Both the position numbers and the translations under genes were made by a program. A stretch of 64,000 nucleotides of DNA from Physcomitrium patens (taxonomy: Eukaryota > Streptophyta > Bryopsida > Funariales > Funariaceae), in assembly GCF_000002425.4 (NCBI RefSeq), contig NC_037265.1, positions 5,954,323-6,018,322 of the forward strand, read 5' to 3'. Positions within the stretch are counted from its first letter, which is position 1. Every line of letters begins with the position of its first letter. This document shows, piece by piece, positions 13,254 to 50,707 of this stretch. The notes beneath the pieces are model-generated. The model saw only the letters and a program-made list of their open reading frames with translations. It made no database searches and was not told the origin of the DNA.

Positions 13254-13521
13254 TACAAGTATTAATTACCTTAGTTGTTTTTATATTTGTGTCATTACAC
13301 TCTTCAATTCGACAAGCTCTGCCCTGGTAACATCTAGAAAAAAAATATCTAATATTGCTCAAGACAAGTAAGAGAACGGACTTGAGAACAAAGAAAATAC
13401 TAAAAACAATATCAGTTTAAAAGAGGGTAATCCACAACTCTTAATACACTTATGTCTTATCAAGAAAAAGAGGTAATCTACTCTTAATTAAGAAAAGACA
13501 AAGCTCTGATATTGTAAGTGT

Positions 13522-13533
13522 ACTCTTGTCAAT
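13522..13533 (-). promoter_or_regulatory. C1 putative self-priming primer-binding site
   Basis: The plus strand reads actcttgtcaat; the element strand ATTGACAAGAGT starts 1 nt inside the 5' LTR. It is a perfect 12-nt complement of the LTR segment at 13709-13720, which begins 31 nt downstream of the TATATATA box. Tf1-type elements prime reverse transcription from their own mRNA 5' end in this way. A tRNA-iMet-like TATCAGAGC lies further in but cannot define the LTR edge. Confidence 0.7.
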
Positions 13534-13534
13534 C

Positions 13535-14095
13535 TGTCAAGAACAAGAACTTGATGAAAAAGCAATTTAGATAAGTGAGCCTTCACTCAAAGAAAGATAA
13601 CAAAATATAAATAAACAAGTATGTATATTCAAAGAGAAATTGGAATGGCTATCGCCAAAGACTAGAAAACATGAAGACTCTTGAAACTAGACTAGAAACA
13701 AGAAAAGAATTGACAAGAGTGAAGAAGGCTTCACTCTTGTCTCTATATATACTATCTAACTAGGGACTACGTGGCAACATTCTATAAGACCTCCAATATG
13801 TGTTGACTTTGTAGGACACATGCCTTGACTTATGAAGCAAGTTTTTCTACATGTGGGCCACATTGTTAGCTTGGTCTTCATGCTAACAACATGTGTGGCA
13901 CATGGCCAACTTATTGACCACGTTTTTAATCCAAAAAATCAATTAAAGATACTTATAAAGTCAAAGTAGCATCTATGAAGCTTCTAAGAAGCCTTCATAC
14001 CAAATACTATAGAATTAACTTACTTTTATCTATTTTTACTTACTTCTACCTATTTATATATGTAATTACTGACTTACATGAGTATGTCCGTGACA
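13535..14095 (-). repeat. C1 5' LTR
   Basis: 561 bp with intact TG...CA ends (TGTCACGGACAT start on the element strand). It contains the TATA box, an inverted repeat GACAAGAGTGAAG/CTTCACTCTTGTC across the predicted start site, and a weaker GAA/TTC cluster near 13979-13998. Confidence 0.93.
13744..13751 (-). promoter_or_regulatory. C1 LTR TATA box
   Basis: TATATATA in the 5' LTR. From its first base (13751) to the first base of the 12-nt self-complementary motif (13720) is exactly 31 nt, the usual TATA-to-start distance in plants. The spacing is identical in elements A and B. Confidence 0.65.
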
Positions 14096-14100
14096 CCAAG

Positions 14101-14700
14101 CCAAAGCGCTTTTTAGATCGATACCAACTACTACTACCACCAATTATAGTTGATGACAAATAAGAATATAAAATAGATAATATTTTGGAACACCGCTAAT
14201 TGTGCTATGGCAGCAGATGTCTATAACTTCAATACAAAGTTCTTTGGAAGAATCATCCTATCCACAATATAATGTGAGAACTTGTACAGAACCTAATTCT
14301 ATTGCTAAGAGACAATTTGGAGATACCATTGGAAGCAAAACGAGGATGTTCTGTATTAGTAGAGGAGGATTAACTATAAGAGGGTATAAATAAGATATTT
14401 GTATTATTGACACATAAAGATAGATAGTTGAAACTATATTTGAGAAGTTATGGAAGTTTCTAGAATTGAGGTTACATTAGTGGATTATGTAGGATCCATC
14501 TTAGAATATTCTAGAAAGAGTTTAAGAGAGTTATTTAAGTGAAGTCCATTATTTAAAATATTTTTAGAATGTCTAGAGTACTAGAACAAAGTATAAATAA
14601 GACTAACCAGGGCCTTTTTGGCAGCTGATCAGGTGTAGCTTTGGATCTTTTCTCTTAGTAAAATTTGATTTTGCATCTTGTTGTTCAGTTCAATTTTGTT
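14101..14700 (+). pseudogene. Element F chromodomain end and probable 3' LTR remnant
   Basis: Continues F pol across the C1 insertion site. KPKRFLDRYQLLLPPIIVDDK is followed, after a stop, by a chromodomain-like stretch (EYKIDNILEHR ... LQYKVLWKNHP, about 14164-14260). F is therefore also a chromovirus. Beyond a purine-rich tract near 14360 there is a TATA-like gggtataaataag (about 14379) and tagaatattctagaaag. These are plausible 3' LTR features, but no partner LTR is present to confirm it. Confidence 0.5.
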
Positions 14701-16639
14701 CTATTTCTATTTGTTTAGTTTTATCTTTCATGTCTTATTCTATTTAATTTTGTTTAATTTTATTCTTGTCCATATAGTCCTACTTTGTGATGAAGTTTTA
14801 TGTTGCTGTCAATTAGAAGGATCTTAAATTCTCAAGATTGACTTATCCTGTTTCATGATGTAAATGCAATCTAATCAAGTAAATTTGATTAAATTCAAGC
14901 CAAAAAATATTATTTGCTTCACTACAATTTTTTATTGTAATTTTAAATAATTCTTTATTCTATTGCACCTCACTATGTTATTATTAAAAATAATAAAAGT
15001 ACCTTCAAAATTGAATGAATTGTATGATGTCTCTTGTATTAGGCCATTTTCAATGAAGTTGATTGCCTTATTTTTGAATAATAGCTTGTTGCTTACAACA
15101 ATAAGACAATAAATTTTTTAACTTGTTGTGTCATTCAATAATAAACTTTCACTTCAATTGTAAGTTTTCAATAATAAAATTCATTGTTATCACTTCTATA
15201 CACAATGGCTTGAAATGCCTCTAACCTTCTATTTTTCATATAATTCAATTAATACAAAAAGATATATACAACTTGAAGCTACTTTGATTACTTCTAATAA
15301 AATATCTTAAATTAAAAATCAAATAATTTCAAAATTCTACACAATGTCATAGTAATATATAATATCATAATAACTTTGAACAATCAAATTTTATTTGATT
15401 ATTCATATATTGTTTCTAAATTTGAATAATTAACTACTAAAATGATAGTAAATACAACACTCAAACCATTTCACCTTAATACACTCACTTTGAAATTTCT
15501 GAAAATATGCTTATTCTACAATGCAAAGTACAATGAATTTTTTTTGTATTTCAAAAATTATATAGAATTTTTTTTTATATAATTTTTTGTATAATACTCT
15601 ATAATATAAAGTATAATAGAAATTCTAAAATGTAATGTAATGTAAATACATATAATTTTTTGAATCTTATAAAATATCTAAAAATATACTCTCTATGCAA
15701 TACAAAGCATGGTAACATGATTTTAAAAAAATAAAGAGCATGGTTTTTGAAAACTTTGAATTTTTGTTAAATTTTTCTCTCAAATCAAATTATAAACTTA
15801 TCCTTGTTTTGTCAGTTCACTCATAAATTCTTCAAAAAAATCTTAGAGAGAAGCTCAAATACAATGCACGAATACTTAGATATAAAAAATAAAACTTTCA
15901 GCAGATACCTATTGCAATTATAGAGTGCAATTTCAAAAAAATACAAAAAATTGCAATTATGTCTTCTTCTCTATCAAGGATCAAACTTCACTTTCAATTG
16001 CATTGCATGCATATAAAAAAAATATATATTTTTAAACCCATCTATGTTGAATTAAACTCTAGTATTTTATATTCAATTAAACTTTAATAATGATGGATTC
16101 ATTCATCAAATAAGGACCACTATTTTTTTTGGCTGTTTATCTTGAATTCACATCATACAATGCTACTTGTATTATGAGCCTTGAGTCTACAACAATCAAG
16201 TGCTTGATAGATCCATTCTTTATTAAACAATTTTTATTTGAATAATATTTGGAGAGATTCTAAAGCCACCTGAATCAAAAACTATTGTTGCTTATTAGTC
16301 AAAGCGTCTCTCAAAGCTTTAAGCCTTTTGCCACAATTTAGAATCCCTTATGAAATACCTTGATTAATTGTAAAACTCCTTATAAAATGCCTTGATTATT
16401 TATAAAATGTCCTATGAAATGCCCTGAAAACTTCACAGAAGACAAACTTTTTTGATGGAAATAAAGATTCATCCATGTAACCATTGAGAATCACTACTTG
16501 AAGCTTGTAAAACTACCCAATTAATTAAAAAACACAATGATAAAACATGTCATGAATTCTACAAAACATGAATCTTTTTGATAAAAACAAAGATCAATCC
16601 ATGCACTGAATGAGAGCTATTACTTTTTTATTTAAATGA

Positions 16640-16692
<53 letters not shown>

Positions 16693-17485
16693 TTACATAT
16701 AATATTATTTATATTATTTATTTATTTTTTATAAATAAATAAATAAATATATAATATATTATAATATATTTACTATAAAGTATCTTCATCAAATATTGAA
16801 ATGATTTTAGCTATAAGTTTAACTTATAATTCAAACCAATTTTTATTTATTGAAGCCTTAATAATTATTTGAGATATTTTTATAAATAGCATAGATTCTT
16901 TATTTTTTAATATTTTATTAGTTAGATAGAAAAACTTTATTAGTTTAAAATTTGAAGCCAACATGGTAAGTTTAAAAAGTATATGTATTTGTAATTCTTT
17001 ATAAATCAAAGTATGTGTCATATTTCTAACAACATTTCTTCTATCTTATATTGAAGTTTGAATATAGGACCTTGGTACAAAATTAATATTTATAAGGCTA
17101 ATTGACAACAACAAGTAACCTTAAGTAATACGATATTTACATTTTCTATGATGATCATATAAGCTATTTAGTGTCTTATTGATAATATATATTATAGTCT
17201 TGGTTGTTGTTTAATAACTAACATTTGTCTTGATGTACTATAAATACTAATATTTGAAGCAAAAAAAATTAGTCAAATGAGATGTAATGACTTAGTCTAA
17301 TAAAGCTATACCATTGAATATCTTTTCAAGCTCTACAATCTTAACTTTCAAGGCTTTTCTTCATCTAAAGAAAGTTGATTGTTGAATATAGAATGTAGTA
17401 ATGATTTCCACTATTGTTGAATTTATTACAATAAGTACACTTCAATTTCTTTTTTACAAATCTCTTTTGTATTATCATGGCAAAA
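14701..17485. other. AT-rich intergenic DNA, no gene seen
   Basis: About 2.8 kb of very AT-rich sequence with short homopolymer runs. No coding segment or RNA gene is recognisable; the few short open frames have low-complexity composition. Confidence 0.7.
16645..16690. repeat. (TA)n microsatellite
   Basis: Nearly pure alternating TA followed by further interrupted TA and TAA runs to about 16760. Confidence 0.9.
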
Positions 17486-17489
17486 ATTG

Positions 17490-17930
17490 ACACTAAAAAT
17501 TATCTAGATAAAAATAATTAAATAGAAGTTAATAAATTATATAACCTCTTAAAGAAAAGCTTATTAGAAGCTTTATAGATGTAGATCTAACTTTATACAT
17601 GTCTATATATATTTGATAGGTTGAAAACTTGGCCAATAAATTAGCCATATATTACACATGTTGGCTACTTATGGTACAAGTTGATTATATAGTGTACATA
17701 TAAAAAACTTGTCTTATAAGTTAAATACATATCTTAGTTGAATACTTATCATAGGTCCCAAAGAATATTGCTATATAATTCTTAATTAGATAATATTTAT
17801 CAAGACAAGAGTGAGACCTTCATCACTCTTGTGAATGTCTTTCTTATTCTTATTCTTGTTTTAAAAGTCTCTAGTCTTCTTATCTTTGGCAATAGCTATT
17901 CTAGTCTTAATATTATAGCATTATTTAATC
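17490..17930 (+). repeat. Old C-family LTR fragment
   Basis: Aligns in the plus orientation with the C-family LTR at 47067-47624. Shared landmarks in order are agaagctttatagatg, aacttggcca, acaagagtgagaccttcatcactcttgt (the start-site inverted repeat) and ggcaatagctattc. It is strongly diverged and its ends are not defined. No internal C sequence adjoins it, so it is a solo LTR or remnant. Confidence 0.6.
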
Positions 17931-18284
17931 ATTACCTACTCTTTTCTAGTGATACAAGAGTATATTGATCCTTTGATTCTTTGTAATTGGTATCTTTAAT
18001 ACTTGCCTTAGTCACCTTTGTCTTTTGCTTAGGCTTTTATGTATGCTAGGTCTTTTTTTTAAAAAATAATTTGAATCATTCTCGATATGAATAATTTGAA
18101 AAGCTTCTAATCAATGTTGGATATATATATTTAAATAAGTTTATTTTTAGAAAATACTTCTTCTTATTTTATTTCAAAGTATGCTAAATGAATATATATA
18201 ATGTGTGGTATTTATTTATTTATTTATTTTTAAGTCAAAAATTCTAAATGAATTGTATTTGATTATATATAAAGCCTCTATACT

Positions 18285-18663
18285 TCTTAATAGAGTGTGT
18301 AACTCGTATTAGAAATAAAGTAGAAAGGGCGATTGAGACTGCTTTGCCAGTTGACAAGTTATAGCTGCCATTTGTTGGTGTTAATTTTATTTAACTACTA
18401 TAGCCTGATAAGCTGTCATATAATCTAATAAAACAAGTGTTTACATATTAATTGGACATTGTTGATTAAGCTAATTTTTTATATGTTCACAGTAGAAAAT
18501 CCATGTGCTTAGACCATAGACTTATGCTATATAAAGAGTAGAAGTAGAAGTTCATTTCAAGCATTTGTGCTCTTAAATCTTTAATAGTAAGGTAGTGAAT
18601 TCTTTTGCATTTACTTCATAAAACTTCTATTTTAGCATTATACTTCTTTTTTATTTTTTTACA
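18285..18663 (+). repeat. Copia element G 5' LTR
   Basis: 379 bp ending in TTTTTTACA directly before the primer-binding site. Matches 35244-35622 along its whole length. Confidence 0.9.
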
Positions 18664-18676
18664 TGGTATGAGAGCC
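18664..18676 (+). promoter_or_regulatory. Copia G primer-binding site (tRNA-iMet type)
   Basis: TGGTATGAGAGCC directly abuts the 5' LTR. One base differs from TGGTATCAGAGC, the site complementary to plant initiator tRNA-Met, used by most plant copia elements. It is a useful contrast to chromoviruses A-C, where no tRNA site abuts the LTR. Confidence 0.85.
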
Positions 18677-19370
18677 TTGATACTATAGATTTATTCTTTG
18701 AAAAATTTGAGTGAATCAATTGAAATTGTTTTATAAAACTTGGTCTTTTGATCAACTTTGAAGAATTTTTACTTTTAGCATTAGCTTGAAAGGAGTTAAA
18801 CCTCTAGTAAGCATAAAATTCAAGCCACTAATATTTTTGGTAGCTTATAATTGTAGCAGCAAGGCATTAATTTTGAAGGAGAAAGAGCATTTTCAAATTT
18901 TAGTACTACAAGAAATAAGTATTGGAGCTTGTAGCTACTAATCTAATCAAATTAGCAATAGAATCTACCAACAATGATAAGATTTGATGGCAAAAGCAAG
19001 ACTTGGTAGCAACAACAGCAAGACTTGGCAATGGAAGGGGGGGCCAACATAGTCCAAGGAACTCCAACAAGACCATGGAACTCCAAATTTGATTTTTTTT
19101 TTTTCGATTTTTTGGACATAGTTTTATGTAGAAAGTTCTAAAAATTACAATTTTTTAGAATTTTGAATTGAATGTTTTTGAAAATGCTAATGATATAATT
19201 TCACATATTTTAAAAATATTTTGGAATATTTTGAAAATTCTTTAATATTTTTTTATTGATATTCAAAAAATCTATAAGTAGGTGTGAAATCTTACCTAGA
19301 TCTCATTTCTATTTAACTTCTATTTCTTCTTCTATTTTTCTAATTTCTTCTATTTAGGATATATTTCTTG

Positions 19371-20150
19371 CAAGATGACAATAAAGTAATATATTATAGA
19401 AAAATTTGATAGAGACAATTGGCATTTGTAGAAGAAAAGAATCTACTTTATCCATATTGACAAGGATTTATGGAAGGTTGTTTGTGGAAAATACAAGAAA
19501 CCTATTGGGTCACCTATAGATCTAGAAGACTTAGAAAAATGGGAGGATATAGACTAGAGGGTAAAATTTGCGATTTGCCTACATCTTACATGTACAAAAT
19601 TTTTAACCACAAATAAGGCAGAAAGCACAAAAGCAGAATGACAAGTTTTGGAAGCAATATAAAAGGTAAAAAATACTTTGAGCCTATTATACTTGATTTA
19701 CAAGTTCTAAACCATGTAAATAAGTAAATATGATAACATTGTTATGCATATAGGTAAGCTATGGAAGATGATTAAGCAACTTTCTTCTATTAGTGAGAAG
19801 GTTTTTGATACACAGTTTATAATGGTATTATTAGGGAGTCTCTTTGAATCATATTAGACATTGGTGGTGGTACTAGAAACAAGATCTCTAGCAAAATTAA
19901 CATTATAAATAATCACAGCTCAACTATTGTACCAAGAATCTTATGACAAGAATGTGGGATCAACTTCCAAAGCGACATTGGTGGAAGAAAGAAAATCTAA
20001 GTAACGTTCTCATATTCATACTCATATAGGGTCTTCACATAATTATAAGAAGGATGTCAAATATATATATTATGGCAAGAAAGGTCACTATGAGAGAAAG
20101 TGTTAGACTAAAGAGAAGGACAAGAAGTGAAGAAAGTTAAAAAAGACTTT
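19371..20150 (+). pseudogene. Copia G gag, decayed
   Basis: Starts near ATG 19374. The translation shows the copia gag features FDRDNWHL near the start and a knuckle with lost cysteine (YYGKKGHYERKC, about 20070-20105). Several stops interrupt it. Confidence 0.65.
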
Positions 20151-20199
20151 TCAAAAAAAACAAGCTAATATAATAGACAAAAAAGATCAAAAGGATGAT

Positions 20200-21300
20200 A
20201 AATCTATCTTTGTAGCTACATCATCTGTCACTATAAGCTGCAAAGAATGATATATTGAATTTAATGCTTCTCAATATATGACAAGAAATCAAAGTTGGCT
20301 TTTAAGTTATAAAAATCTATCATAAAAGTTTATTTAAGCAATAATACTAGACTTTCCATCAAAGAGAAGGATAAGATCTCTTTCCAATTTTCAAACAATG
20401 TTTGCAAGGATATACATGATATCTTGTATATTAAAAAATTGACCAAGAATTTACTTTTTATTAGCAAAATGATAGATCAAGGTTACAAAATCAATTTTAG
20501 CATTGATACATGTCACATGAAATGAGACAACACAACTATCAAAGGTGTTAGACATGGTAGCTTATATAAGCTATTGGAATCTTTAAATGAAGATTAAAAA
20601 ACTTCTTTTGTTATTGAGACAAAACAAACTTTGAACAAGGCTAACCTTTGGCATCAATAATATAGTTATTTTGGCATTTTGGGCTTAAAGAAACTACTAG
20701 CAAGTGATATGATTACTCATCTAGACATAGACAAGTACAAAAAGTTAAAAATTTGGAAGGGATGTATTTATAGAAAACAACATTATAATTTTTTTTAATA
20801 AAAGGTGTTATTTGTACAACAAAGCTCTTAGAATTGACATATTCGAATATAGATGATCTTATGAAGATAAAATCTCATATAGGAACAAAATACTTTATTA
20901 CTCTTATTGATGATTTTTCAAGAAAAACTTTTGTATATTTTTTGAAACAAAAGTTCAAAGCCTTAAATAAATTTTGAATATTTAAGGCTCTAGTTGAAAA
21001 ACAAAAGGACTTAGAGATTCAAAAATTACATAGTGGCAATAGTGGGGACTACACATCTAAGGCCTTCAAATAGTTTTGTGAGCAATATGGTATTGAAAGA
21101 TAATTTTCAATGCCTTATACACCCCAACAAAATGGAGTTGCAAAATGCAAGAATTGATCATTATTTGAATGTGTGAGGTGCATATTACAACATAAATAAC
21201 TTTCAAATACATAGTAGATAGAAGCCATTAATACTACAATATAATACATTAATTGAGCTCCTACTATGGTTGTAGAAGAAAAAATACCAAAAGAAGTTTT
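20200..21300 (+). pseudogene. Copia G protease and integrase, decayed
   Basis: The integrase core is recognisable: LIDDFSRKTFVYFLK (first Asp, about 20900-20950), then HSGNSGDYTSKAF where the catalytic Asp of the usual SDNGGE-type block is lost, then MPYTPQQNGVAK with the Glu of VAE replaced by Lys. Upstream, LWHQ... and a Cys/His region mark the zinc domain. Inactive. Confidence 0.7.
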
Positions 21301-21399
21301 ATTAGGTATAAAATCTTAAGTAAAATATCTTTGTATCTTTGGATGTAATATCTATATATATATTCTGGATGAAAAATATACAAAACTTAATCCTAAAAA

Positions 21400-21618
21400 C
21401 AAGAAATATATATTTTTGGGCTATGTTGAGGATACTAAGTGCCATTATTTATATGATGTTAAAAATGGCTCTATAATTAAGAGTCATGATATTAAGTTTA
21501 TTGAGTGTAAAGATTTTAAGCAAATGGAAGGAACTTTGAAGGTTTATATTGATAAACCTCAAAAAATAAGGATTAAAATTAAAATTATAGAATCTTCATC
21601 AGATTCAAAAAGTGATAT
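21400..21618 (+). pseudogene. Copia G pol between integrase and RT, left of insertion A
   Basis: The open piece 21416-21652 starts GYVEDTKCHYLYDVKNGSI, the conserved block that precedes RT in copia pol. It runs into the LTR of element A at 21619, so the last residues of this open frame are LTR-encoded. Gatat (21614-21618) is the target duplication repeated at 33346-33350, where copia pol continues. Confidence 0.8.
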
Positions 21619-22113
21619 TGTCACGGACACAAAATACAGACTTAAAATCTAACAAGAAGTTCAAGAAGAAGTGGCAAAACTAGATTAAACAGATGAGTAT
21701 AAGAACAACACCAGAAAGGTGAGCTAGAACTCCAAGACATGTGTTGTCGAGACTGAAGAACTCTTCAGCCTCGATCCCTATATATACTCTTACTTAGGAA
21801 GCTTCTCGAGCTACTTCTATTAACTAGGAAGCTTCTAGAAGGTTCCAGAGGCTTCCTTTCTAGAAGGTTCTAGAAACTTCTCGAGCTACTTCTATTAACT
21901 AGGAAGCTTCTAGAAAGTTCCAGGGGATTCCTTTCTAGAAGCTTTTAGAAACTTCTCTTCTAGAAGATTCTAGAGACTTCCTTTCTAGAAGCTTCTAGAA
22001 ACTTCTCTCTAAAAGGTTACAGAGGCTTCTCTTCTAGAAGGTTCCAGAGGCTTGTTTTCTAGAAGGTTCAAGAAACTTCTCTCTAGAAAGTTCTAAGCAA
22101 TATGTCCCTAACA
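21619..22113 (-). repeat. Element A 3' LTR
   Basis: 495 bp, TG...CA. On the element strand it is preceded by the purine tract complementary to plus 22114-22127. It contains the heat-shock-type block array (21796-22100), TATATATA (21779-21786) and the self-priming partner motif (21744-21755). Confidence 0.95.
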
Positions 22114-22160
22114 TCACCCCCTCCTTTAGCTTCCAGGTCTCTGAGAAGCAATGTTTTTGA

Positions 22161-22514
22161 TCAATACCCATGCAAGAAAATGAAGATCTGTCGCATAACT
22201 TCTGCTATGAACTCCAACTGTTGTTCACGAGGTAAGTGGTTCATCGACCCTTGAAGCCAACGGTAGTGACCCACACCTTCGACTTCTGACCAAGCATGAA
22301 CTTCCGTGTCCTCATTGTGAAATTGTCCTGCAAACACGCCTTCTGGTTGACCATCGTAAGCAGGTTCGATTTCAAATACGATCACCAGTGATTGATTACT
22401 CGGTATCCTCCGTCGTCATCGTGGTACATGTAGTTCTTCATCTCGGGGTCGCCTTCGTGAGCTACTCGGTTGCGATACTCTGACTGGCATAGTATCTATC
22501 TCTTGGCTATCCAT
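22161..22514 (-). pseudogene. Element A ORF3, extra ORF after pol (one stop)
   Basis: 117 codons, the same length as ORF3 of element B and collinear with it. It starts MDSQEIDTM, has an arginine-rich stretch, then YDGQPEGVFAGQFHNEDTEV and GHYRWLQGSMNHLPREQQ. One in-frame TGA replaces a CGA Arg codon in the arginine cluster (near 22409). It lies between the pol end and the polypurine tract in the pol sense. The family is unknown to me; an additional ORF at this place is not part of the standard chromovirus plan. Confidence 0.75.
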
Positions 22515-22630
22515 ATCAAAAGACCAAACTACGATCTATCTTGGAGAAAATAACTACATCAACTATGAATTTTGCTGGTGCTCTCCCCTTTTCTTATATT
22601 GTTGGGAGAACAAGCTTCAGAAAGAAGCTA

Positions 22631-24557
22631 TCATCGAATTGATTTAGGTTTATCGGGATGTCGTTTATGAAACTCCTCTACCTTTTGTGGCGCATTCGCA
22701 AGATTTTCAGCTGGCTCCCACGTTCGCTCATTAATGTCATAGCCACACCAATGAACAAGATATTCTAAAGAGAGATCTCCAAAAATTTGACACGAACTGG
22801 GTACCTCGATCTGATATAATATCATCTGGTAGTCCATGATATCGATACACATTATCGAGAAAGAGTCTTGCTGTGACTTCACTGGACGATGTCTTCTTAC
22901 AAGGAACAAAGTGTGCCATCTTCGTAAGCCGATCTACCATGACAAAAATGCTGTCAAATGAGTTTGATGATGGCAAGTCCGTGATGAAGTCCATAGAAAT
23001 TGAAGACCATGGTCGACGTGGAATTGGCAATAGCTGTAGAAGTCCATAAGGGCAATGCCGAGGATTCTTAGATCTTGAATAGATGTCACAAGAGAGGACA
23101 AAATCTTTCACATCCTTCCACATTTGGGGCCACCAAAAATCTCGGGAAATAAGCTTCAAGGTCTTGTTGAATCCAAAATGTCCCGCAGCTGGAAAATCAT
23201 GGCGAGATTGAAGAACTCGGAGTCGTGCTAGTCCTTTTGGAATGTACAATCGCTCTTCAAAGTATAAAAGATCTCCCTCCACCTTGAACTTGTCGTCATT
23301 GGTATGTTGCTTGATATCAATGGCTATTGAATCTTTAATGGTCATAGCACGTACCTGGTTTAGGAAGTCAGCATCAAATGATACAATAGTAGCACAAAGT
23401 TGAAATCTCTTTGGCTTCAATAACGTTGTACATTGTTGATCAAACGCTGCTTCTCCAGCCTTTGGTGCAAGATACGAATTCCTTGATAAAGCATCGGATA
23501 GTCCTTGCTGCCTTCCAGGTCGATAAGTGATAACAAAATCGAATCTAGATAGCGACATATTCCACCAAGCTTGACGCCGATTTAAAACTCGAGCTGTCAT
23601 GAAATACTCCAAATTCTTGTGATCCGTATATATGGTTACTGGATGTGCAGCTCCTTCAAGAAAGTGACGCCATTCTTCAAAGGAATCCACTATAGCAAGA
23701 AGTTCCTTATCGTGGATCTCATAATTGATTTCAGCAGCAGAAAACTTCCGAGAATAGAATGCAACTGGATGGAGCTTCTTATCTTCACTCATTTGTGAAA
23801 GCACAGCTTCCAAAGCAAAATCTGAAGCATCAGTTTCTAAATAGAATGCCTTTGTCTGGATGTATCAAAATTGGAGCTGTAGTAAATGCTGTCTTCAAAT
23901 CTTGAAACGCCTTCTCTGCCAAAGGTCTCCATTCCAACTTATCCTTGCATGTTAATCGAGTGAGAGGAGCAGCAACTTGAGAATAATTCTTGATGAAGAT
24001 CCGATAGAAGTTAACAAAACCAAGAAAGCATTGTACGTCTCTAACCGTCTTCGGAACCTCCCAAGACATGATTGCTTCTACTTTCTTAGGGTCCATCTTC
24101 AAACCTTCTGTAGTCGCAATGAACCCCAAAAATTCCATCTCCGTCTGGTGAAATAAACACTTTTCTAATTTGGCATATAGTCCTCGCTTGCGTAGTTTCT
24201 CCAAGACCAAACGAACATGCTCTTCATGCTCTTCCTCGTTTTTAGAGAATATTAGAATATCGTCCAAGTAGATGACAACAAAATCGTCGAGGTGTTCTCG
24301 AAAGATGTCATTCATCATATGTTGGAAAACCGCTGGAGCATTGGTAAGACCAAAAGGCATGACATTATATTCGAAATGACCATACCTTGTACGGAATGCT
24401 GTCTTCCACTCATCTCTTTCCTTGATTCGTACGAGATTATAAGCTCCCCTTAGATCAATTTTTGTAAAGATCTTCGCACGTCCAAGTTGTTCTAAGAGAC
24501 TAGAAATCAAGGGTAATGAGTAACGATTTTTCTTTGTTACCTTGTTGAGGCCTCGAT
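22631..24557 (-). pseudogene. Element A pol, downstream part: RT to chromodomain, with internal deletion
   Basis: The reading starts RGLNKVTKKNRY at the junction with element B. RT has VIYLDDILIFS (intact YLDD). After a short deletion near 23840-23870 that shifts the frame, RNase H (ALDEE-type blocks [28 protein letters not shown]) and integrase (CDIYSRSK with one knuckle Cys changed, [21 protein letters not shown]) follow. Near 22780 the sequence jumps from the integrase core to the chromodomain ([19 protein letters not shown]), losing the GPY/F region. It ends at the stop at 22631. Confidence 0.9.
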
Positions 24558-24969
24558 TGTCACGGACACAAAATACAGACTTGAAATCTAACAAGAAGTT
24601 CAAGAAGAAGTGGCAGAACTAGATTAAACAGATGAGTACAAGAACAACACCAGAAAGGTGAGCTAGAACTCCAAGAGATGTGTTGTCGACACTGAAGAAC
24701 CCTTCAGCCTCGACTGCTATATATACTACTGAATAGGAAGCTTCTCGAGCTACTTCCGCTAACTAGGACGCTTCTCTAACAACTTCTACTAATTAGGAAA
24801 CTTCTCGAGCAACTTCCTAGAATCTATCAGAATATTCTAGAACCTTCTAAGAGAATCTTTAGAGAATATTCTAAGAATCTTCTAGAACCTTCTAAAAGAA
24901 TCTTTAGAGAATCTTTAGAGAATATTCTAGAAGAATATTCGAAGAATCTTCTAATGTATGTCCATGACA
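24558..24969 (-). repeat. Element B 3' LTR
   Basis: 412 bp, TG...CA; the purine tract lies at plus 24970-24983. TATATATA is at 24718-24725. The partner of the self-priming site is at 24683-24694, with one mismatch. Confidence 0.95.
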
Positions 24970-25019
24970 TCACCTCCTCTTCTAACTTCGAGGTCTCCGA
25001 GAAGCAATGTTGTTATCAG

Positions 25020-25373
25020 TCAATACCAACGCAAGAAAATGAAAATCTGTCGCATCACATCCGCTATGAATTCCAATTGTTGTTCGCGAGGCAAATGATT
25101 CATCGGCCCTTGGAGCCAACGATAGTGACCAACACCTTCAACCTCTGACCAAGCGTGGACTTCTGTGTCTTCATTGTGAAACTGTCCTCCAAACACACCT
25201 TCTGGCTGACCGTCGTAGGCAAGCTCGACCTCAAATACAATTACTAGCGATCTGTTGCTCGGTATCCTCCGACGTCGTCGTGGTGCAGGCGGTTCTTCAT
25301 CTCGCGGTCGTCTTCGTGAGCTAGTCGCTTGAGATGACATAACAAGTGTAGTATCTTGACTATCCATGTCCAA
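25020..25373 (-). CDS. Element B ORF3: intact 117-residue extra ORF after pol
   Basis: Intact from ATG 25373 (a second ATG lies two codons on) to the stop at 25020. Residues about 18-43 are rich in Arg and Pro (SSRRRPRDEEPPAPRRRRR), resembling a nuclear-localisation or nucleic-acid-binding stretch. The rest is acidic and aromatic, with YDGQPEGVFGGQFHNEDTEV and GHYRWLQGPMNHLPREQQ, ending in a hydrophobic MRQIFIFLRWY. No transmembrane segment or signal peptide is evident. Homologues exist in A (22161-22514) and, degraded, in C1 (8308-8774) and C-outer (45447-45900), always between chromodomain and 3' LTR. Function unknown; I recognise no named family. Confidence 0.8.
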   Translation of the reverse strand: MDMDSQDTTLVMSSQATSSRRRPRDEEPPAPRRRRRIPSNRSLVIVFEVELAYDGQPEGVFGGQFHNEDTEVHAWSEVEGVGHYRWLQGPMNHLPREQQLEFIADVMRQIFIFLRWY

Positions 25374-25493
25374 AGGCTAAAATGATGAGAGCAAACTATA
25401 GTTGCTAACAAAGTTCTACACTATCGAACTATGGGTTTTGGAGGTGCCCTCCCCCCTTTTTATGTTACTTGATGAGCAAGCTTCAGCAAGAAG

Positions 25494-28400
25494 CTATCGT
25501 TGAATCGGCTTAGGTTTATGAGGATATCGTTGATGAAATTCTTGTACCTTTTTTGGTGCATTGGCAAGATTTTCGGCACGCTCCCACGTTTGTTCATTGA
25601 TGTCGTATCCACTCTAATGTACTAAATACTCCAATTTTCTCCTATTACGCCGTGAATCTAGTACCTTTTCCACCTCGTATTCCTCATGGTTTTCAATTTC
25701 GATACTTGGTGGCGGACTTTGTACTCTTTGGGGAAAAGCTGACTCTCGATAAGGTTCCAACAAAGACACATGAAAGACTGGATGTACCTTCATAGTAGCT
25801 GGTAACTCCAGACGATATGCCACCGGATTGATCTGCTTCCCGATAACAAATGGCCCTAATCTCCGATAGTCCAATTTGTCACATGGCCGCTTGGTCTTGA
25901 TATTCCGTCGAAGAAGCCATACTTTACTTCCAACTTTAAAAGTAGGCACCTCATTTCGATATTTATCTGCAGATGCCTTGTAACTCTCTTGGGCAGATTG
26001 TAATTGAAGCTTCAACGTCGCTTGAATCTCCGATAGTTGCTTCACAAATCCTTCAGCTGCTGGGTTGTTATTTGCTGAAGAACTCAATAAATCGAGCTTA
26101 GGGTGGTATCCGTAGTTGGAGAAGAATGGTGTTTGTTGAGTTGACGCATGAAGAGTGTTGTTGTATGCGAACTCAGCAAGCGGTAGATATGCAGTCCAAT
26201 CATCTTGTTGATAGTTGATGCTGCATCGTAAATATTGCTCCAAAACTTGATTCACCTGCTCCGTTTGACCGTCAGTTTGAGGATGAAAAGCCGAAGAGAG
26301 CTTAATATCCACCTTCAATATCTCAAAGAGAGACCTCCAAAACTTGGATACAAATTGAGTACCTCGATCCGACACGATATCATCTGGTAGGCCATGATAA
26401 CGATATATGTTATCAAGAAAGAGTCTTGCGGTGTCTTCACTTGACGATGTTTTCTTGCAAGGCACGAAATGTGCCATCTTTGTAAATCGATCCACCACAA
26501 CAAAGATGCTGTCAAATGAATTCGATGGCGGTAGGTCCGTAATGAAGTCCATAGAAACTGAAGACCATGGTCGGTGCGGAATAGGCAATGGCTGGAGAAG
26601 TCCATACGGACGATGTCGAGGGATCTTGGATCTTGAACAAACATCACAAGAAAGGACAAATTCCTTCACATCTTTCCACATTTGAGGCCACCAAAAATCT
26701 CGTGAAATGAGCTCCAAAGTCTTGTTGAATCCAAAATATCCCGCAGCTGGAAAGTCGTGGCGAGTTTGAAGTACTCGGAGTCGAGTTGGTCCTTTCGGGA
26801 TATACAACCGCTCCTCAAAATACAGAAGATCTCCCTCCACCTTAAACTTGTCATTATCGACACGTTGTTTGATGTCAAGAGCTATAGAATCCTCACTGGT
26901 CGCAGTACGTACCTCGCTAAGGAAGCCGTCATCGATAGTTGCAACAGTAGCAAAAATCCTGAATTTTTTTGGTTTCAACAATGTTGTACATTGTTGATCA
27001 AACGCTGCTTCTCCAGCCTTTGACGCAAGATACGATCTCCTCGATAATACATCAGATAATCCTTGCTGTTTTTCAGGGCGATAGGTGATAATAAAGTCAA
27101 ATCGTGATAGAGACATATTCCATCGAGCTTGACGACGATTCAAAATTCGAGCTGTCATGAAGTACTCCAAATTCTTGTGGTCCGTATAAACAGTCACTGG
27201 ATGTATAGCTCCTTCGAGGAAGTGACGCCACTCTTGGAAGGCATCCACTATAGCAAGCAACTCTTTATCGTGGATCTCGTAGTTGATCTCAGCAGCAGAG
27301 AACTTTCGTGAATAGAACGCAACTGGGTGAAGCTTCTTGTCTATGCCCATCTGTGAAAGCACAGCTCCCAAAGCAAAATCTGAAGCATCGGTCTCTAAAT
27401 AGAAAGCCTTTGCAAAGTCAGGGTGTACCAAGATTGGAGCCGTAGTGAATGCCGTCTTGAGATCTTGAAATGCTTTTGCTGCTTGTGATCCCCATTCGAG
27501 CTTGTCTTTGCTTGTTAGACGCGTGAGTGGTGCAGCAACTTGAGAATAATTCTTGATGAAGATCCGATAGAAGTTAGCAAATCCAAGAAAACATTGAACA
27601 TCTCTAACCGTCTTCGGAACTTCCCAAGATATAATTGCTTCTACCTTTTTTGGATCCATCTTCAAGCCCTCTGTAGTCACAATGAAGTCCAAAAATTCCA
27701 TCTCATTCTGGTGAAATTGACACTTCTCCAACTTGGCGTAGAGTCCTCGTTCGCGTAGTTTTTCAAGAACCAAACAAAGGTGCTTCTCTTGTTCTTCTTC
27801 ATTCTTGGAAAATATCAAAATATCATCCAGATAGATGACAACAAAGTCATCGAGGTACTCCCGAAAGATGTCGTTCATCATATGCTGAAAGACCGCTGGA
27901 GCATTGGTAAGACCAAAAGGCATGACATTGTACTCAAAATGGCCATACCTTATACGAAAGGCTGTCTTCCATTCATCTCCTTCTTTGATTCGCACAAGGT
28001 TGTAGGCTCCTCTTAAATCAATCTTTGTAAAAATCCTTACACATCCAAGTTGATCTAAGAGGCCGGAGATCAAAGGTAAGGGATAGCGATTTTTCTTGGT
28101 CACCTTGTTGAGTCCTCGGTAGTCCACGCACATCCGCAGTGAGCCATCCTTTTTCTTCACCAATAGGATTGGTGCTCCAGCTGGTGACTTTGAATGTCGA
28201 ATAAAATTCTTGGCTAGATTCTCATCGATGTACTTCCGCAATTCTGCCAACTCCGTCTGCGATAGGTTGTATATTGGACCAAAAGGTGGTTGCGCTCCTT
28301 CCTCTAAGTCTATGGCGCAATCATATGGTCGATGTTCCGGTAGTATATCGGCGTTCTTCTTCTGAAACACGTCTTCAAAATCCCTATATTGCTCTGGTAT

Positions 28401-28964
28401 ATTCGATGTTGAGATATTCTCGCCGCTAGTTGGAGCTGCATAAATGACAAATGGTGCGCCTTCCTTGGACGATCTTAGGAATGCTCACGCTCCAATAAAC
28501 ATGGATTTCTTCATGTAGGTTCTACCAACAGGTTTATTATTATTTTTTTCAGGAAATGTTATCCTTCGTAGCCTCCAATCAATGGACGGATTATGATCTT
28601 CTAACCAAGAAAGACCAACGATAACAGGGCTTGATGGGGTTCTAATAATATTAAAAATAACGTGACTACTATGGTCCTTAAACACCACTTCTATAGGTTC
28701 TGATTCGTGGGTAATGTTGCCTGACAATAAGGGTCGTCCATCTATCACCTCTACGTGAACAGGTTTGGACTTCTGTACTAAACGGATCTTGTGGCGTTTA
28801 GCAAACTCTTCATCTAAAAAACAAGTAGATGCCCCCGAATCCAATAAAGCTAAAGTTTTTTGTTTTTGAGGGCCTAAAAACAAAGGAATTGTAAAATTAC
28901 GGGCAGGTTGGACAATGAAGGAAGAACCTGATTGTTGTCGTGATATTAGATTGTCCAGCCGCAC
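25494..28964 (-). pseudogene. Element B pol: protease, RT, RNase H, integrase, chromodomain (two stops)
   Basis: One frame of about 1156 codons. The protease has LLDSGASTCFLDEEF (intact DSGA). A TGA at 28485 separates it from an open stretch of 918 codons: RT with YLDDILIFS; RNase H with [15 protein letters not shown] and HDKELLAI; integrase with HHCC ([25 protein letters not shown]), [21 protein letters not shown] and [20 protein letters not shown]; and the GPY/F-type LGPFVIGKQINPVAYRL. The chromodomain (YEVEKVLDSRRNRRKLEYLVH) is cut by TAG at 25614 where related copies have Trp; its remainder stays open to 25494. The active-site residues I can check are present. Confidence 0.93.
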
Positions 28965-28969
28965 GGTTC

Positions 28970-29971
28970 CTACTGTGGCTGGGCGTCGTCATTTTCCAGA
29001 ATCATCGCACTTCTAGTCTTGACAAGGTGCCAATTTTGCTTCTTTGGGCAATTTCCAACCTTGTGACCTTCTTCTCCACAGTACAAACATAACCCTTCCT
29101 CCATACGTCGTTTCTTCTCTGTTGGAGTAAGAGATCGGACACGCGCCGTGTCGATTTGCATGTCTGTTGCCTCCGAATGTGAGTTTAAGCTATTTGCAGA
29201 CATAGTCACGTCGTAACGAGTCATTTGGTGTCTTGGACGTTGGTCTTGGCGACGCTGGAATAGGCGGTTGTCACACTTTACAGCTTGGCTAATAGCTTCT
29301 TTGAGCGTTTGAGGATCAGGAAGAGATAACAGCAAGTCCTTCACATCATCCTTCAAGCCCCAATAAAACTGACTCACCAACGCCTCTTCACCCCAATTAA
29401 TGTCACTTGCCAATTGTCTGAAATCCGAGGTATAGACTGATGCAGAGCGTGTTCCTTGTCATAGCGATCGGATCTTTGTTGTAGCCCATCGAACTTTATC
29501 ATGCTCGCCACATGCTTCTGCAAACGCCTCCAAGAACGTTTCAAAGTTGCTCAGGATTGGCGATCGCTTCTCGAACAAGGGAGTAAACCAAGACAGGGCT
29601 TGTGCTGTAAGCAAGGTTCCAACAAGCCCAACACGCGCTTCCTCCGTCGGATAACGTTCGGGCTCTAAAATTGTTATCAACCTGATTTGGTTGACAAAAC
29701 CTCGAAACTTGGAACGAGTTCCATCAAACTTATCCGAAAGACTAACTCGAGGCTCCTTTCGTTGTAGGACTACTCGATCTTGTTGAAATGGAGGTAGAAC
29801 TGCTTCTTCTGGCGCAGAAGTTTGAGGCTGATATGCTTTAGATGGCGCTATCTCAGATGCTCCATTGTTATGGAGTCCTACTATGACTCCTTCGATCTCT
29901 GTTGTCCTATGTGACAACGAGGCAAGAGCATTTATGATGGCGTCTAGTTTGGATTCCAAACTTTCAGCCAT
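28970..29971 (-). pseudogene. Element B gag (one internal stop)
   Basis: About 333 codons from ATG 29971. The N-terminus (MAESLESKLDAIINALASL) could form a coiled coil. The family block RVSLSDKFDGTRSKFRGFVNQ and a capsid region follow, then one zinc knuckle CLYCGEEGHKVGNC. A TGA at 29459 interrupts the frame where element A has CGA. Pol (28964) is offset by -1 relative to gag, with a short overlap; the same offset is seen in A and C-inner. Confidence 0.88.
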
Positions 29972-30260
29972 TTTAACGTCTTAACCTTCGGCTAACCTTC
30001 AGAAAGAAGAAAAAAGAGTTTTGACAAGAGGACAATATTGGTTCAGAGGAGAGTACTCCGCAACCTCTAAAACGCCTTAAGACTCCAAGATGAGGGGTAA
30101 TCCACTCTCTCCAAGAAGAATAAGGCTCCAATATTGAGAAAGAAGAGATATCAGTTTAGAGGAGGGTAATCCGCAACCTCTAAAACACTAGCACACCTTC
30201 AAGAAGAGGGGTAATCCACTCTCTAACAAGAAGGAACTAGCTCTGATACCAGTGAAAATG
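29972..30260 (-). other. Element B leader between primer site and gag
   Basis: About 290 nt of non-coding leader with repeated gaggggtaatccactctct-type units. It contains, 24 nt inside the LTR, the element-strand TGGTATCAGAGC, a perfect match to the tRNA-iMet primer site but displaced from the LTR edge. Confidence 0.7.
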
Positions 30261-30272
30261 CAGTCTCGACAA
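30261..30272 (-). promoter_or_regulatory. Element B putative self-priming primer-binding site
   Basis: Plus strand cagtctcgacaa (element strand TTGTCGAGACTG), 2 nt inside the 5' LTR. It is complementary to the LTR motif at 30400-30411 with 11 of 12 positions paired; the element A LTR partner would pair at all 12. The motif begins 31 nt downstream of the TATA box at 30435-30442. Confidence 0.72.
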
Positions 30273-30434
30273 ACTGTCACGGACACAAAATACAGACTTG
30301 AAATCTAACAAGAAGTTCAAGAAGAAGTGGCAGAACTAGATTAAACAGATGAGTACAACAACAACACCAGAAAGGTGAGCTAGAACTCCAAGAGATGTGT
30401 TCTCGAGACTGAAGAACCCTTCAGCCTCGACTCC

Positions 30435-30442
30435 TATATATA
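30435..30442 (-). promoter_or_regulatory. Element B LTR TATA box
   Basis: TATATATA, 31 nt upstream of the motif matching the primer site. It is followed by the inverted repeat GAGGCTGAAG/CTTCAGTCTC around the predicted start. Confidence 0.65.
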
Positions 30443-30546
30443 CTACTGAATAGGAAGCTTCTCGAGCTACTTCCGCTAACTAGGACGCTTCTCCAACAAC
30501 TTCTACTAATTAGGAAACTTCTCGAGCAACTTCCTAGAATCTATCA

Positions 30547-30668
30547 GAATATTCTAGAACCTTCTAAGAGAATCTTTAGAGAATATTCTAAGAATCTTCT
30601 AGAACCTTCTAAAGGAATCTTTAGAGAATCTTTAGAGAATATTCTAGAAGAATATTCGAAGAATCTTC
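30547..30668 (-). promoter_or_regulatory. Element B U3 heat-shock-element-like array
   Basis: Phased nGAAn/nTTCn blocks, for example gaatattctagaaccttc and gaatattctagaagaatattcgaa. This is the binding pattern of heat-shock transcription factors (alternating GAA and TTC every 5 bp). The array lies about 105-230 bp upstream of the TATA box on the element strand. The same array is in the 3' LTR (24839-24955). Heat response is inferred. Confidence 0.65.
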
Positions 30669-30691
30669 CAATGTATGTCCATGACATCGAT

Positions 30692-31538
30692 AGTCCACAC
30701 ACATCCGTAATGATCCATCTTTCTTCTTCACAAATAAGATAGGTGCTCCAGCTGATGATTTTGAATGATGAATGAAGTTCTTGGCTAGATTCTCGTCGAT
30801 GTACTTTCGTAACTCTGCCAACTCCGTTTGCGATAGATTGTAGATTGGGCCAAAAGGTGGTTGTGCTCCTTCTTACAAGTCTATGGCACAATCATATGGT
30901 CGGTGTTCCGGTAGTATGTCGGCGTTCTTCTTTTGAAACACGTCTTCAAAATCTTTATATCGCTCCGGTATACTTACTGTTGAGATCTTCTCCTCGGTAG
31001 TTGGAGCCGCATAAATGACAAATGGAGTGCCTTCCTTAGATGATCTTATAAACGCTCTTGCTCCAATGAATAAGGATTTCTTTTTTTGAGGTTTTTTACT
31101 AGGTTTTTTCTTGGGTGGTTTTGTGGGAAAAGTCATCTTCCGCAACCTCCAATCTATCAATGGATTATATTTTTCCAACCAAGAAAGACCAAGAATAACA
31201 GGATTTGATGGGGTTCTAATAATATTAAAAATAATATGACTACTATGGTCTTTAAACGTTACTTCTATAGGTTTTGATTCATGGGTGATGCTACAAGACA
31301 ATAAAGGTCGTCCATCTATGATCTCAATATGAACAGGTTTTGATTTTTGTACTAAAGGGATCTTATGACGCTTTGCAAATTCTTCGTCTAAAAAACAAGC
31401 AGATGCTCTTGAGTCTAGTAGCGCTAAGGTTCTTAGTTTTTGAGGGCCGATAAATAGAGGGATTGTAAAACAAAGTGCAGGTTGGGCAGAAAGAAAGGAA
31501 CCTGATTGTTGTTGGGATATTTCATTGTCCAGCCACAC
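30692..31538 (-). pseudogene. Element A pol, upstream part: protease and start of RT
   Basis: The protease has LLDSRASACFLDEEF; the Gly of the DSG active site is Arg, one G-to-A change. The frame continues through a lysine-rich linker, a TAA at 30873, and the RT N-terminus ([17 protein letters not shown]...[13 protein letters not shown]), where element B is inserted. It continues at 24557. The first readable pol codon is GTG at 31538, in the -1 frame relative to gag. Confidence 0.88.
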
Positions 31539-31543
31539 AGTTC

Positions 31544-32569
31544 CTACTGTGGCTGGGCATCCTCGTTTTCCTGAACAAATACTCTCCTAGTCTTGACTAT
31601 GCCTCGATTTTGCTTTTTGGGGCAGTTTTCGACTTTGTGGCCTTCTCCACCGCAATACAAGCATAAATTTTCCTCTATACGTCGCTTTTTTTCTTCTATA
31701 GTAAGAGATTTGATACGTACCGCATCAATTTGCATGTCTTCCACCTTTGAATGCGAATTCACACTACTTGCCGACATAGTTGGAGCATGGCGAATTGTAT
31801 GTTGTCTTGAGCGTTGGTCTTGGCGACGTTGGAATAGGCGATTATCGCACTTCACAGCTTGGCTAATGGCTTCATTGAGCGTTCGTGGATCAGGAAGAGT
31901 TAACAGCAAATCCTTCACATCATCTCTTAAACCCCAATAGAATTGACTCATCAACGCTTCTTCATCCTAATTGATGTCGCATACTAATTGCCTGAAATCC
32001 GAAGCATAGACTGATGTAGAACGCATCCCTTGTCGTAGCGATCGGATCTTTGTTGTAGCCCATCGAACCTTATCGTGTTCACCAAATGCTTCCGCAAATG
32101 CTTCCAAAAAGGTTTCGAAGTTGTTTAATATGGATGATCGTTTCTCGAACAAAGGAGCAAACCATGATAGAGCTTGTCCCGTAAGTAAGGTTCCAACAAG
32201 CCCAACACGTGTCTCCTCCGTTGGATATCGTTCGGGCTGTAAAACTGTTATCAACCTGATTTGATTGACGAATCCTCGAAACTTGGAACGTGTTCTATCA
32301 AACTTATCTGGAAGGCTAACTCGAGGCTCCTTATGTTGTAGAACTAGTGGTTCTTGTCGAACCTGAGGTAAAGTTGTTTCTCCAAGTGCCGAAATTTGAG
32401 GCTGGTGTAGTTTAGATTGTGCTATCCCTGATACTCCATCATTATGAAGCCTTGCCACCACTCCTTCAATCTCTGCAGTTCTTTGTGATAATATAGCGAG
32501 GGCATTCATAATAGCATCTAACTTAGACTCCGAACTTTCTGTCATACTAATGTCTTGACCTCCGGCCAT
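31544..32569 (-). pseudogene. Element A gag (one internal stop)
   Basis: 341 codons from ATG 32569, collinear with element B gag: the SESKLDAIMNALAIL helix, RVSLPDKFDRTRSKFRGFVNQ, the capsid part, and a zinc knuckle CLYCGGEGHKVENC (about 31640-31690). A stop at 31967 replaces the Trp codon seen in B. Confidence 0.88.
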
Positions 32570-32836
32570 TCTAAAAGAAGGACAAAAATGACCCTATAAG
32601 AGGCAATATTGGTTTATAGGAGGGTAATCCACAACCTATAAAATGCCTTAAGAATTTCAAGAAGAGGGATAATCCACTCTCTCTAAGAAGAATAAGACTC
32701 CAATATTGTAACAGAAGAAGTATCAGTTTAGAGGAGGGTAATCTGCAACCTCTAAAAAATGCTAGTATACCTTCAAGTAGAGGGGTAATCCACACTCTAC
32801 TAAGAAAGAACTAGCTCTGATATCTCAAGTTAGTGA

Positions 32837-32848
32837 CAGTCTCGATAA
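32837..32848 (-). promoter_or_regulatory. Element A putative self-priming primer-binding site
   Basis: Plus strand cagtctcgataa, 2 nt inside the 5' LTR. It pairs with ttgtcgagactg at 32976-32987 (and 21744-21755) at 11 of 12 positions; the mismatch is a C-to-T change relative to element B. Confidence 0.7.
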
Positions 32849-32850
32849 AC

Positions 32851-33345
32851 TGTCACGGACATAAAATACAGACTTGAAATCTAACAAGAAGTTCAAGAAG
32901 AAGTGGCAAAACTAGATTAAACAGATGAGTATAAGAACAACACCAGAAAGGTGAGCTAGAACTCCAAGAGATGTGTTGTCGAGACTGAAGAACTCTTCAG
33001 CCTCGATCCCTATATATACTCCTACTTAGGAAGCTTCTCGAGCTACTTCTATTAACTAGGAAGCTTCTAGAAGGTTCCAGAGGCTTCCTTTCTAGAAGGT
33101 TCTAGAAACTTCTCGAGCTACTTCTATTTACTAGGAAGCTTCTAGAAAGTTCCAGGGGATTCCTTTCTAGAAGCTTTTAGAAACTTCTCTTCTAGAAGGT
33201 TCTAGAGACTTCCTTTCTAGAAGCTTCTAGAAACTTCTCTCTAAAAGGTTCCAGAGGCTTCTCTTCTAGAAGGTTCTAGAGGCTTATTTTCTAGAAGGTT
33301 CAAGAAACTTCTCTCTAGAAAGTTCTAAGGAATATGTCCCTAACA
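32851..33345 (-). repeat. Element A 5' LTR
   Basis: 495 bp with TG...CA ends, followed on the plus strand by the duplication gatat (33346-33350). TATATATA is at 33011-33018, 31 nt from the self-complementary motif. Confidence 0.95.
33027..33335 (-). promoter_or_regulatory. Element A U3 heat-shock-element-like array
   Basis: About 300 bp dominated by 5-bp-phased GAA and TTC blocks such as gaagcttctagaaggttc and ttctagaaggttctagaa. Runs of five or six consecutive blocks occur. It is placed immediately upstream of the LTR TATA box on the element strand; the same array is in the 3' LTR (21796-22100). A strong match to the known heat-shock-factor site pattern; activity is inferred. Confidence 0.7.
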
Positions 33346-33350
33346 GATAT

Positions 33351-47624: not shown

Positions 47625-47836
47625 AATTGACAAGAATATACTTACAATATCAGAGCTTTGTCTAATCTTGATTAAGAGTGGATTACCCTTTTCTCTTGAT
47701 AAGACGTAAGCATATTAGAAGTTACGGATTACCCTCTTCTAAACTGATATTGTCCTTAGAATTTTCTTTGTTCTCAAGTCCTCTCTTCTATTTGTCTTGA
47801 GCGATATTATACATCTTCTATTTTCTAAGTGTTATC

Positions 47837-50672: not shown

Positions 50673-50707
50673 AGCACGTGTTTCAAATTGTCCGCAAGCT
50701 TGTTGTT
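48964..50707 (+). pseudogene. C-inner pol: protease, RT, start of RNase H, decayed
   Basis: Pieces 48964-49452, 49474-49776, 49864-50202 and 50239-50445 share one frame, separated by stops. The protease has LDSRASTCFLDEVF (Gly of DSG changed to Arg). RT has CYLDDILIYS and FLGYIIS. RNase H is readable to about 50700 (HNKELL). Coding ends at the junction with the LTR-like segment that starts at 50708. Confidence 0.85.

Follow-up and report, generated by a model that had tools for sequence, protein, structure and literature searches.

Three long terminal repeat (LTR) retrotransposons of the moss Physcomitrium patens, here called A, B, and C1, all located on the minus strand of one 64,000-nt stretch of the genome (assembly GCF_000002425.4, contig NC_037265.1, positions 5,954,323 to 6,018,322; below, the window, with positions counted from its first letter), very probably prime reverse transcription with the 5' end of their own RNA, as does Tf1 of fission yeast. 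Self-priming is the best reading of these sequences because the complementary unit is as long as the Tf1 primer, lies 31–32 nt from the motif TATATATA, shows no TGG at the primer-binding site (PBS), and agrees with the LTR ends. The interpretation put forward in the original prediction, made from the letters of the window, is supported by the 11-nt primer at the predicted RNA 5' end, the position of the PBS 2 nt from the LTR, the compensated changes, and RNA folds.

The 5' LTRs end at ...TGACA (positions 32851, 30275, and 13535 for A, B, and C1, respectively), and these ends are secure because 5-bp target duplications flank each element (ATATC/ATATC, ATCGA/ATCGA, and CTTGG/CTTGG). The 12-mers originally noted as complementary, and their coordinates, were read again from the sequence and are correct: 12/12 positions pair in C1 and 11/12 in both B and A, and the 12-mers start 1–2 nt inside the 5' LTR as set by the target duplications. 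The spacing of 31 nt from TATATATA holds for the 12-mers as quoted; when the copies are aligned on the A of a CA dinucleotide, denoted R1, this position is 31–32 nt below the first T of TATATATA. What all three elements share is a unit of 11 nt (R1–R11) rather than 12, and in each of them 2 nt separate TGACA from the PBS. The PBS begins with TTG and not TGG, and so differs from the usual complement of a tRNA 3' end.

For comparison we took 120 copies from the same genome, in four families (A, A2, B, and C). Thirty C-type, 30 A-type, and 20 B-type copies (L001–L080, where L001 is C1 and L031 is A of the window) were picked for their resemblance to the LTR and leader of the window's elements. 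The other 40 (L081–L120) come from the matches listed by a pattern search, which we assigned to a further A-like family, A2 (37 copies), and to C (three); the pattern fixed T at PBS1, PBS2, and the base after the PBS, allowed G or C at PBS3 and anything except C at PBS4, and left R and PBS5–11 free. The main scoring of R:PBS pairing was ungapped, position by position, and covered all 120 copies including L029; a second, gapped scoring covered 119, with L029 dropped. L027 and L029 look like solo or 3' LTRs; both are in the ungapped C count, and L027 alone is in the gapped one. Alignments and folds used chosen subsets, namely 27 rows for the leader, 35 rows each for R:PBS and for the palindrome described below, 34 copies for R:PBS folding, nine for the competition model, and six for the comparison with the Tf1 "pretzel" fold.

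In the ungapped scoring, each of R1–R11 pairs in most copies, the lowest values being R6 in A2 (20/37) and R7 in C (19/33). R12 pairs in no A (0/30), A2 (0/37), or B (0/20) copy and in 5/33 C copies, and R-1 pairs in 4/30 A, 0/37 A2, 15/20 B, and 0/33 C copies. Farther out, there are isolated matches that are constant within families (R-3, R16), as chance predicts. All 11 pairs are Watson–Crick in 23/30 A, 16/37 A2, 17/20 B, and 13/33 C copies, and at least 10 of 11 are paired in 29/30, 31/37, 20/20, and 26/33, respectively; the gapped scoring leaves these counts unchanged, except that the C family then has n = 32. The mismatches of the window's own copies are atypical: the PBS variant of A occurs in 2/30 A copies, the window copy included, and the R variant of B in none of the 19 relatives inspected.

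Dinucleotide shuffles of the LTR matched or beat the best PBS complement found at any place in it in 13 (A), 6 (B), and 0 (C1) of 1000 cases; A and B each have one mismatch here, and the C1 LTR was used 7 nt short. Since the complement sits at the expected start in each family, coincidence is very unlikely. The primer is AGTCTCGACAA in A, A2, and B, and ACTCTTGTCAA in C. These had been called unrelated; in fact the two are homologous, and differ at R2, R6, and R8 only, each difference being compensated in the PBS. Hence, of the claim that pairing is conserved while the bases are not, the first half stands, and the second is reduced to three compensated substitutions, maybe on a single branch. 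In the alignment of 35 copies (32 distinct), 97.7% of 352 cells are paired, and sliding the partner by 1–3 columns lowers pairing to 32–41%. The covariation score is 0.303 vs 0.127 in shuffles, and 0/500 shuffles reach it.

The R:PBS helix is present in the minimum-energy fold of the RNA from R1 in 10/10 A, 10/10 B, and 11/14 C copies selected for folding; with a further 120 nt of leader, it is found in 8 A, 8 B, and 10 C copies. In the window, it is formed in the minimum-energy fold of C1. By the proposed mechanism, transcription would start at R1, a site placed by likeness to Tf1 and by the spacing from the TATA element, and R1–R11 would fold back onto the 11-nt PBS, located 2 nt from the inner end of the 5' LTR. 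As in Tf1, RNase H would cut after R11, and the freed 3' end would be extended into U5. The plus strand would copy the primer, so that the PBS would be rewritten from R in each cycle and pairing restored automatically.

Several observations weigh against self-priming. The number of R:PBS pairs changed on both sides is four, which 106/500 shuffles reach, and one of the four (R7) rests on a single copy. The changes at R2, R6, and R8 all split A, A2, and B from C, and may come from one branch. Covariation across further copies is seen between the two primer types; within families, R:PBS variants looked for in the sampled copies do not covary. At R6 of A2, 10/37 copies have C opposite A, 6/37 have T opposite G, and one has a T–A pair, apparently from independent CpG decay on both sides rather than from covariation (L081–L117). 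In the window's own A and B, with one mismatch each, the R:PBS helix is absent from the minimum-energy folds. Finally, the Tf1 pretzel consists of three duplexes, in which the sequences on either side of the PBS also pair with parts of the LTR that follow the primer; candidates for these flanking helices, sought in six copies, are not common to both primer types.

The start site is also covered by a second complementarity. An arm in U3, from R-21 to R-9, is complementary to the segment R-4 to R9 beyond a 4-nt loop, and the two form a palindrome of 12–13 bp that straddles the start site. In all three elements of the window this is the longest hairpin of the LTR, and hairpins this long appear in 3 (A), 1 (B), and 1 (C1) of 200 shuffled LTRs each. 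At least 12 of 13 positions are paired in 26/30 A, 23/37 A2, 20/20 B, and 29/33 C copies, and R9 pairs in just 1/30 A and 1/37 A2 copies. Since the palindrome spans R-4 to R8/R9, and the PBS complementarity spans R1 to R11, they are two separate features. Among 24 distinct rows, 92.9% of cells are paired (37–49% in slid controls), and the covariation score of 0.287, vs 0.137 in shuffles, is reached by 0/500.

Because transcription would start at R1, the arm would be missing from the RNA 5' end and present in the 3' LTR. The two situations were compared for nine copies with a simplified partition-function model. If the arm is omitted, the 3' R is ahead of the 5' primer in competition for the PBS in 9/9 copies, its lead being smallest in C_L020 (0.583 vs 0.365) and C_L013 (0.769 vs 0.18); with the arm, the 5' primer keeps the PBS in 9/9 (0.83–0.98), and the 3' copy has 0.0. 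We tentatively suggest, as a less certain addition to the mechanism, that the U3 arm, being transcribed at the 3' end only, might mask the 3' primer copy by locking it in the 12–13-bp hairpin, so that the PBS would meet only the 5' copy; primer, PBS, and mask would then be a three-way covarying set. There is a substantial chance, if short of an even one, that the palindrome acts, as DNA or RNA, in the promoter or in 3'-end processing and plays no part in priming. Its location between TATA and the start site fits such a function, as does the GAAG/CTTC core, constant in all four families save for scattered mutations; a protein site, however, would be expected to keep its bases, and the part that overlaps the primer changes together with primer and PBS at R2, R6, and R8 between the types. 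The mask is further weakened by three points: the four palindrome pairs changed on both sides are a number that 272/500 shuffles reach; the linker in the model is 40 A and not kilobases of RNA, hence the competition strengths are indicative only; and the hairpin could equally serve the 3' end of the RNA or the promoter DNA.

The same model bears on whether the R:PBS pairing primes at all. The pairing could instead serve the RNA in packaging, dimerisation, or cyclisation, with something else as the true primer, e.g., an internal tRNA fragment: compensated change supports pairing and not priming as such, and either copy of R could pair with the PBS, the 3' copy winning in the fold model without the U3 arm. 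We consider this improbable, as the complementary box stops at 11 nt, begins at the expected start, and sits where a primer must define the LTR end, and since Tf1 is established to prime from this same arrangement (PMC7175516).

The leader offers one more candidate primer site. It is TATCAGAGC, found 24 nt inside the LTR in A, B, and C and kept in most rows of the leader alignment. A helix between the TATCAG of this site and a CTGATA some 100 nt downstream closes off two stem-loops, whose loops resemble GGATTACC. Over 27 aligned leaders (26 distinct), the resulting three-way junction has 31 pairs, with 95.3% of 803 cells paired (43–49% for slid partners) and a covariation score of 0.294 vs 0.190 in shuffles, reached by 0/500; 10 of the 31 pairs are changed on both sides, a number reached by 155/500 shuffles. 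With 88.9% of its cells paired, the closing helix is the least regular part. It was added from single-sequence folds, RNAalifold alone giving just the two inner arms. These modules are candidate packaging signals. A second junction-like module with GGATTACC-type loops stands behind the first in the folds of A (32604–32708) and B, and C1 has one module. An Rfam search of positions 32500–33000 gave just SAM-II, on the plus strand, with 25.4 bits vs the gathering threshold of 44 (E 0.012), which we take as chance.

The site had been described as similar to that of initiator methionine tRNA (tRNA-iMet), located 24 nt inside, and perfect in B. The position and the TGG in B are confirmed, as is the placement of the LTR end 24 nt upstream of it by the target duplications; the site is better explained as a strand of the folded leader. 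In B, TGG followed by TATCAGAG is what we take to be a full match to the iMet PBS. That tRNA-iMet primes at this TGGTATCAGAGC-like site, with the 11-nt complementarity having another role, is most unlikely: TGG precedes TATCAGAG in 18/19 scorable B copies and TATCAGAGC is widely kept, but the LTR would then have to end 24 nt from where the target duplications place it, the A and C copies inspected are without the TGG needed for the tRNA CCA end, and TATCAG is accounted for by the conserved helix of the junction. As a working PBS the site was therefore set aside as the less likely candidate; it may descend from an old PBS.

We also searched the genome for a third primer type, using a pattern of a TGACA end, a PBS unlike both types, and TATCAGAGC. 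It gave 33 hits vs 4 for a control pattern; as it presupposes TGACA and TATCAGAGC, other types may exist. Six of the hits look like altered A, B, or C copies, seven are alike around TTTCATTGGTATCAGAGC (two exactly; e.g., G000:C3:17579132-17579167), and the remainder look unrelated. The TTTCATTGGTATCAGAGC group may be an ordinary iMet-primed family with the PBS one base inside the LTR. No relatives were confirmed in viral contigs (3 and 12 pattern matches).

Self-priming with these dimensions is known from Tf1 and Tf2 of Schizosaccharomyces pombe, in which, like here, the first 11 nt of the RNA can pair with a PBS close behind the 5' LTR and the integrase has a chromodomain (PMC7175516, PMC10085805); Tf1 primes with its first 11 bases, and RNase H cleaves between bases 11 and 12 (PMC7175516). 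The differences are the plant host, the Tf1 pretzel flanking helices, which were not recognised in the six copies compared, and the U3 arm proposed to mask the 3' primer, of which the available portions of PMC7175516 and PMC10085805 make no mention. A survey of 2019 predicts that most Tcn1 elements of mosses and club mosses are self-primed, and states that this is the case in no other group of plant chromoviruses (PMC6317226). P. patens elements had been assigned to Tcn1 by 2010; in SM-Tcn1 of Selaginella, the same paper reports no priming site found (PMC2864245). One P. patens element stands in a 2023 tree with Tf1/sushi elements (PMC10085805), and chromodomains with the group I aromatic cage mark Tf1/sushi including Tcn1, being confined among plants to non-seed plants (PMC3350952). 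Hence, Tcn1-clade elements, including PpatensLTR elements, resemble those of the window as chromoviruses of non-seed plants with aromatic-cage chromodomains and predicted self-priming. The survey prediction rests on a complementarity of at least 10 bp (PMC6317226), to which primer length and covariation are added here; the consulted portions of the Tcn1 publications are silent on how long the primer is, on covariation, and on any palindrome or structure in the leader.

The tRNA-primed plant chromoviruses (Tekay, Reina, CRM, Galadriel; mostly tRNA-Met) share the gene content, TG...CA LTRs, and 5-bp target duplications, and differ in a PBS that begins with TGG just inside the LTR, in place of TTG; no TGG-initial PBS was found here that close to the LTR, the TGG-like site lying 24 nt inside and seen in B copies only. 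TAR-lineage Ty1/copia elements (Houba, Osr-1) are likewise plant elements predicted to self-prime, of another superfamily by the classification of PMC6317226. The priming layout is a better-documented case of a known kind, already predicted for moss Tcn1 (PMC6317226). For the mask and the leader junction we found no mention in the literature available, primary Tf1 papers and survey supplements lying outside that scope; for a palindrome at the start site of self-primed elements or a mask of their 3' primer copy, this covers titles and the opening of abstracts, and does not show absence.

The coordinates are collected in Table 1. The domains of A, B, and C1 fit Ty3/gypsy chromoviruses, with chromodomains of the Tcn1 type as judged by eye. 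The closest solved structure for reverse transcriptase and integrase is Ty3, a match that does not separate clades. B also encodes an SH3_Tf2-1 domain and a DUF4939 gag. The chromodomain of C1 matches Pfam Chromo at 5.5e-15, with F, W, and Y at the cage positions; W and Y are visible in A, and in B the first and last Y are kept and the W position is a stop (all assigned by eye). The LTRs have the form TG...TGACA, except the C1 3' LTR, which ends in TGAGA. They start with TGTCAC, TGTCAT, and TGTTAG..GGACAT, and those of A and B end in TGTCCGTGACA, making terminal inverted repeats that reach about 11 bp at most. Both A LTRs (21619–22113 and 32851–33345) contain internal repeats with an offset of about 75 bp; in the B LTR, the offset is about 45 bp.

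Table 1. Features of elements A, B, C1, and D in the window.
Feature	Position	Strand	Remark
A R1–R11, proposed self-primer at RNA 5' end	32976..32986	-	
A 11-nt PBS, 2 nt inside LTR	32838..32848	-	one mismatch
B R1–R11, proposed self-primer	30400..30410	-	one mismatch in this copy
B 11-nt PBS	30262..30272	-	
C1 R1–R11, proposed self-primer	13710..13720	-	
C1 11-nt PBS	13522..13532	-	
A U3 arm	32995..33007	-	pairs with 32978–32990 (R-4 to R9; R9 unpaired in family A)
B U3 arm	30419..30431	-	pairs with 30402–30414; 20 family B copies
C1 U3 arm	13729..13741	-	pairs with 13712–13724
A leader three-way-junction module	32717..32826	-	closing helix includes TATCAG of iMet-like site
B leader three-way-junction module	30147..30250	-	begins in TGGTATCAGAGC
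C1 leader three-way-junction module	13406..13515	-	
Element A	21619–33345	-	LTRs 495 bp, 98.0% identical
A 5' LTR	32851..33345	-	target duplication ATATC at 33346–33350 and 21614–21618
A 3' LTR	21619..22113	-	98.0% identity with A 5' LTR
Element B	24558–30686	-	nested in A; LTRs 98.3% identical over BLAST match
B 5' LTR	30275..30686	-	target duplication ATCGA at 30687–30691 and 24553–24557
B 3' LTR	24558..24969	-	
B reverse transcriptase, RNase H, integrase, into start of chromodomain	25614..28370	-	
Element C1	7706–14095	-	older; LTR identity 89.8%
C1 5' LTR	13535..14095	-	target duplication CTTGG at 14096–14100 and 7701–7705
C1 3' LTR	7706..8266	-	89.8% identity with C1 5' LTR
C1 integrase chromodomain	8828..8998	-	aromatic cage W and Y present; first cage position F
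D (further C-type element), PBS	47627..47637	+	5' LTR from ~47067; decayed

Other C-type remains are found in the window. The LTRs at 44847–45405 and 47067–47625 have opposite orientation, are 1.7 kb apart, and apparently belong to two elements. Segments 48193–50711 and 61482–64000 are inverted copies about 10.8 kb apart, 99% complementary over 2.5 kb; both match the C-type internal region, and the pair is a recent duplication or an assembly effect. A degenerate C-type LTR fragment lies on the plus strand at 17753–17901, its palindrome and start-site region being still recognisable.

Self-priming of moss chromoviruses has so far rested on prediction, as far as the available portions of the literature go; here, 120 copies from four families fix the complementarity at 11 nt, as in Tf1, and compensated change between two primer types is now documented for these elements. 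Self-primed elements carry an identical copy of the primer at each end of the RNA, and the proposed mask would address how the PBS tells them apart, an idea that the existence of two primer types makes directly testable.

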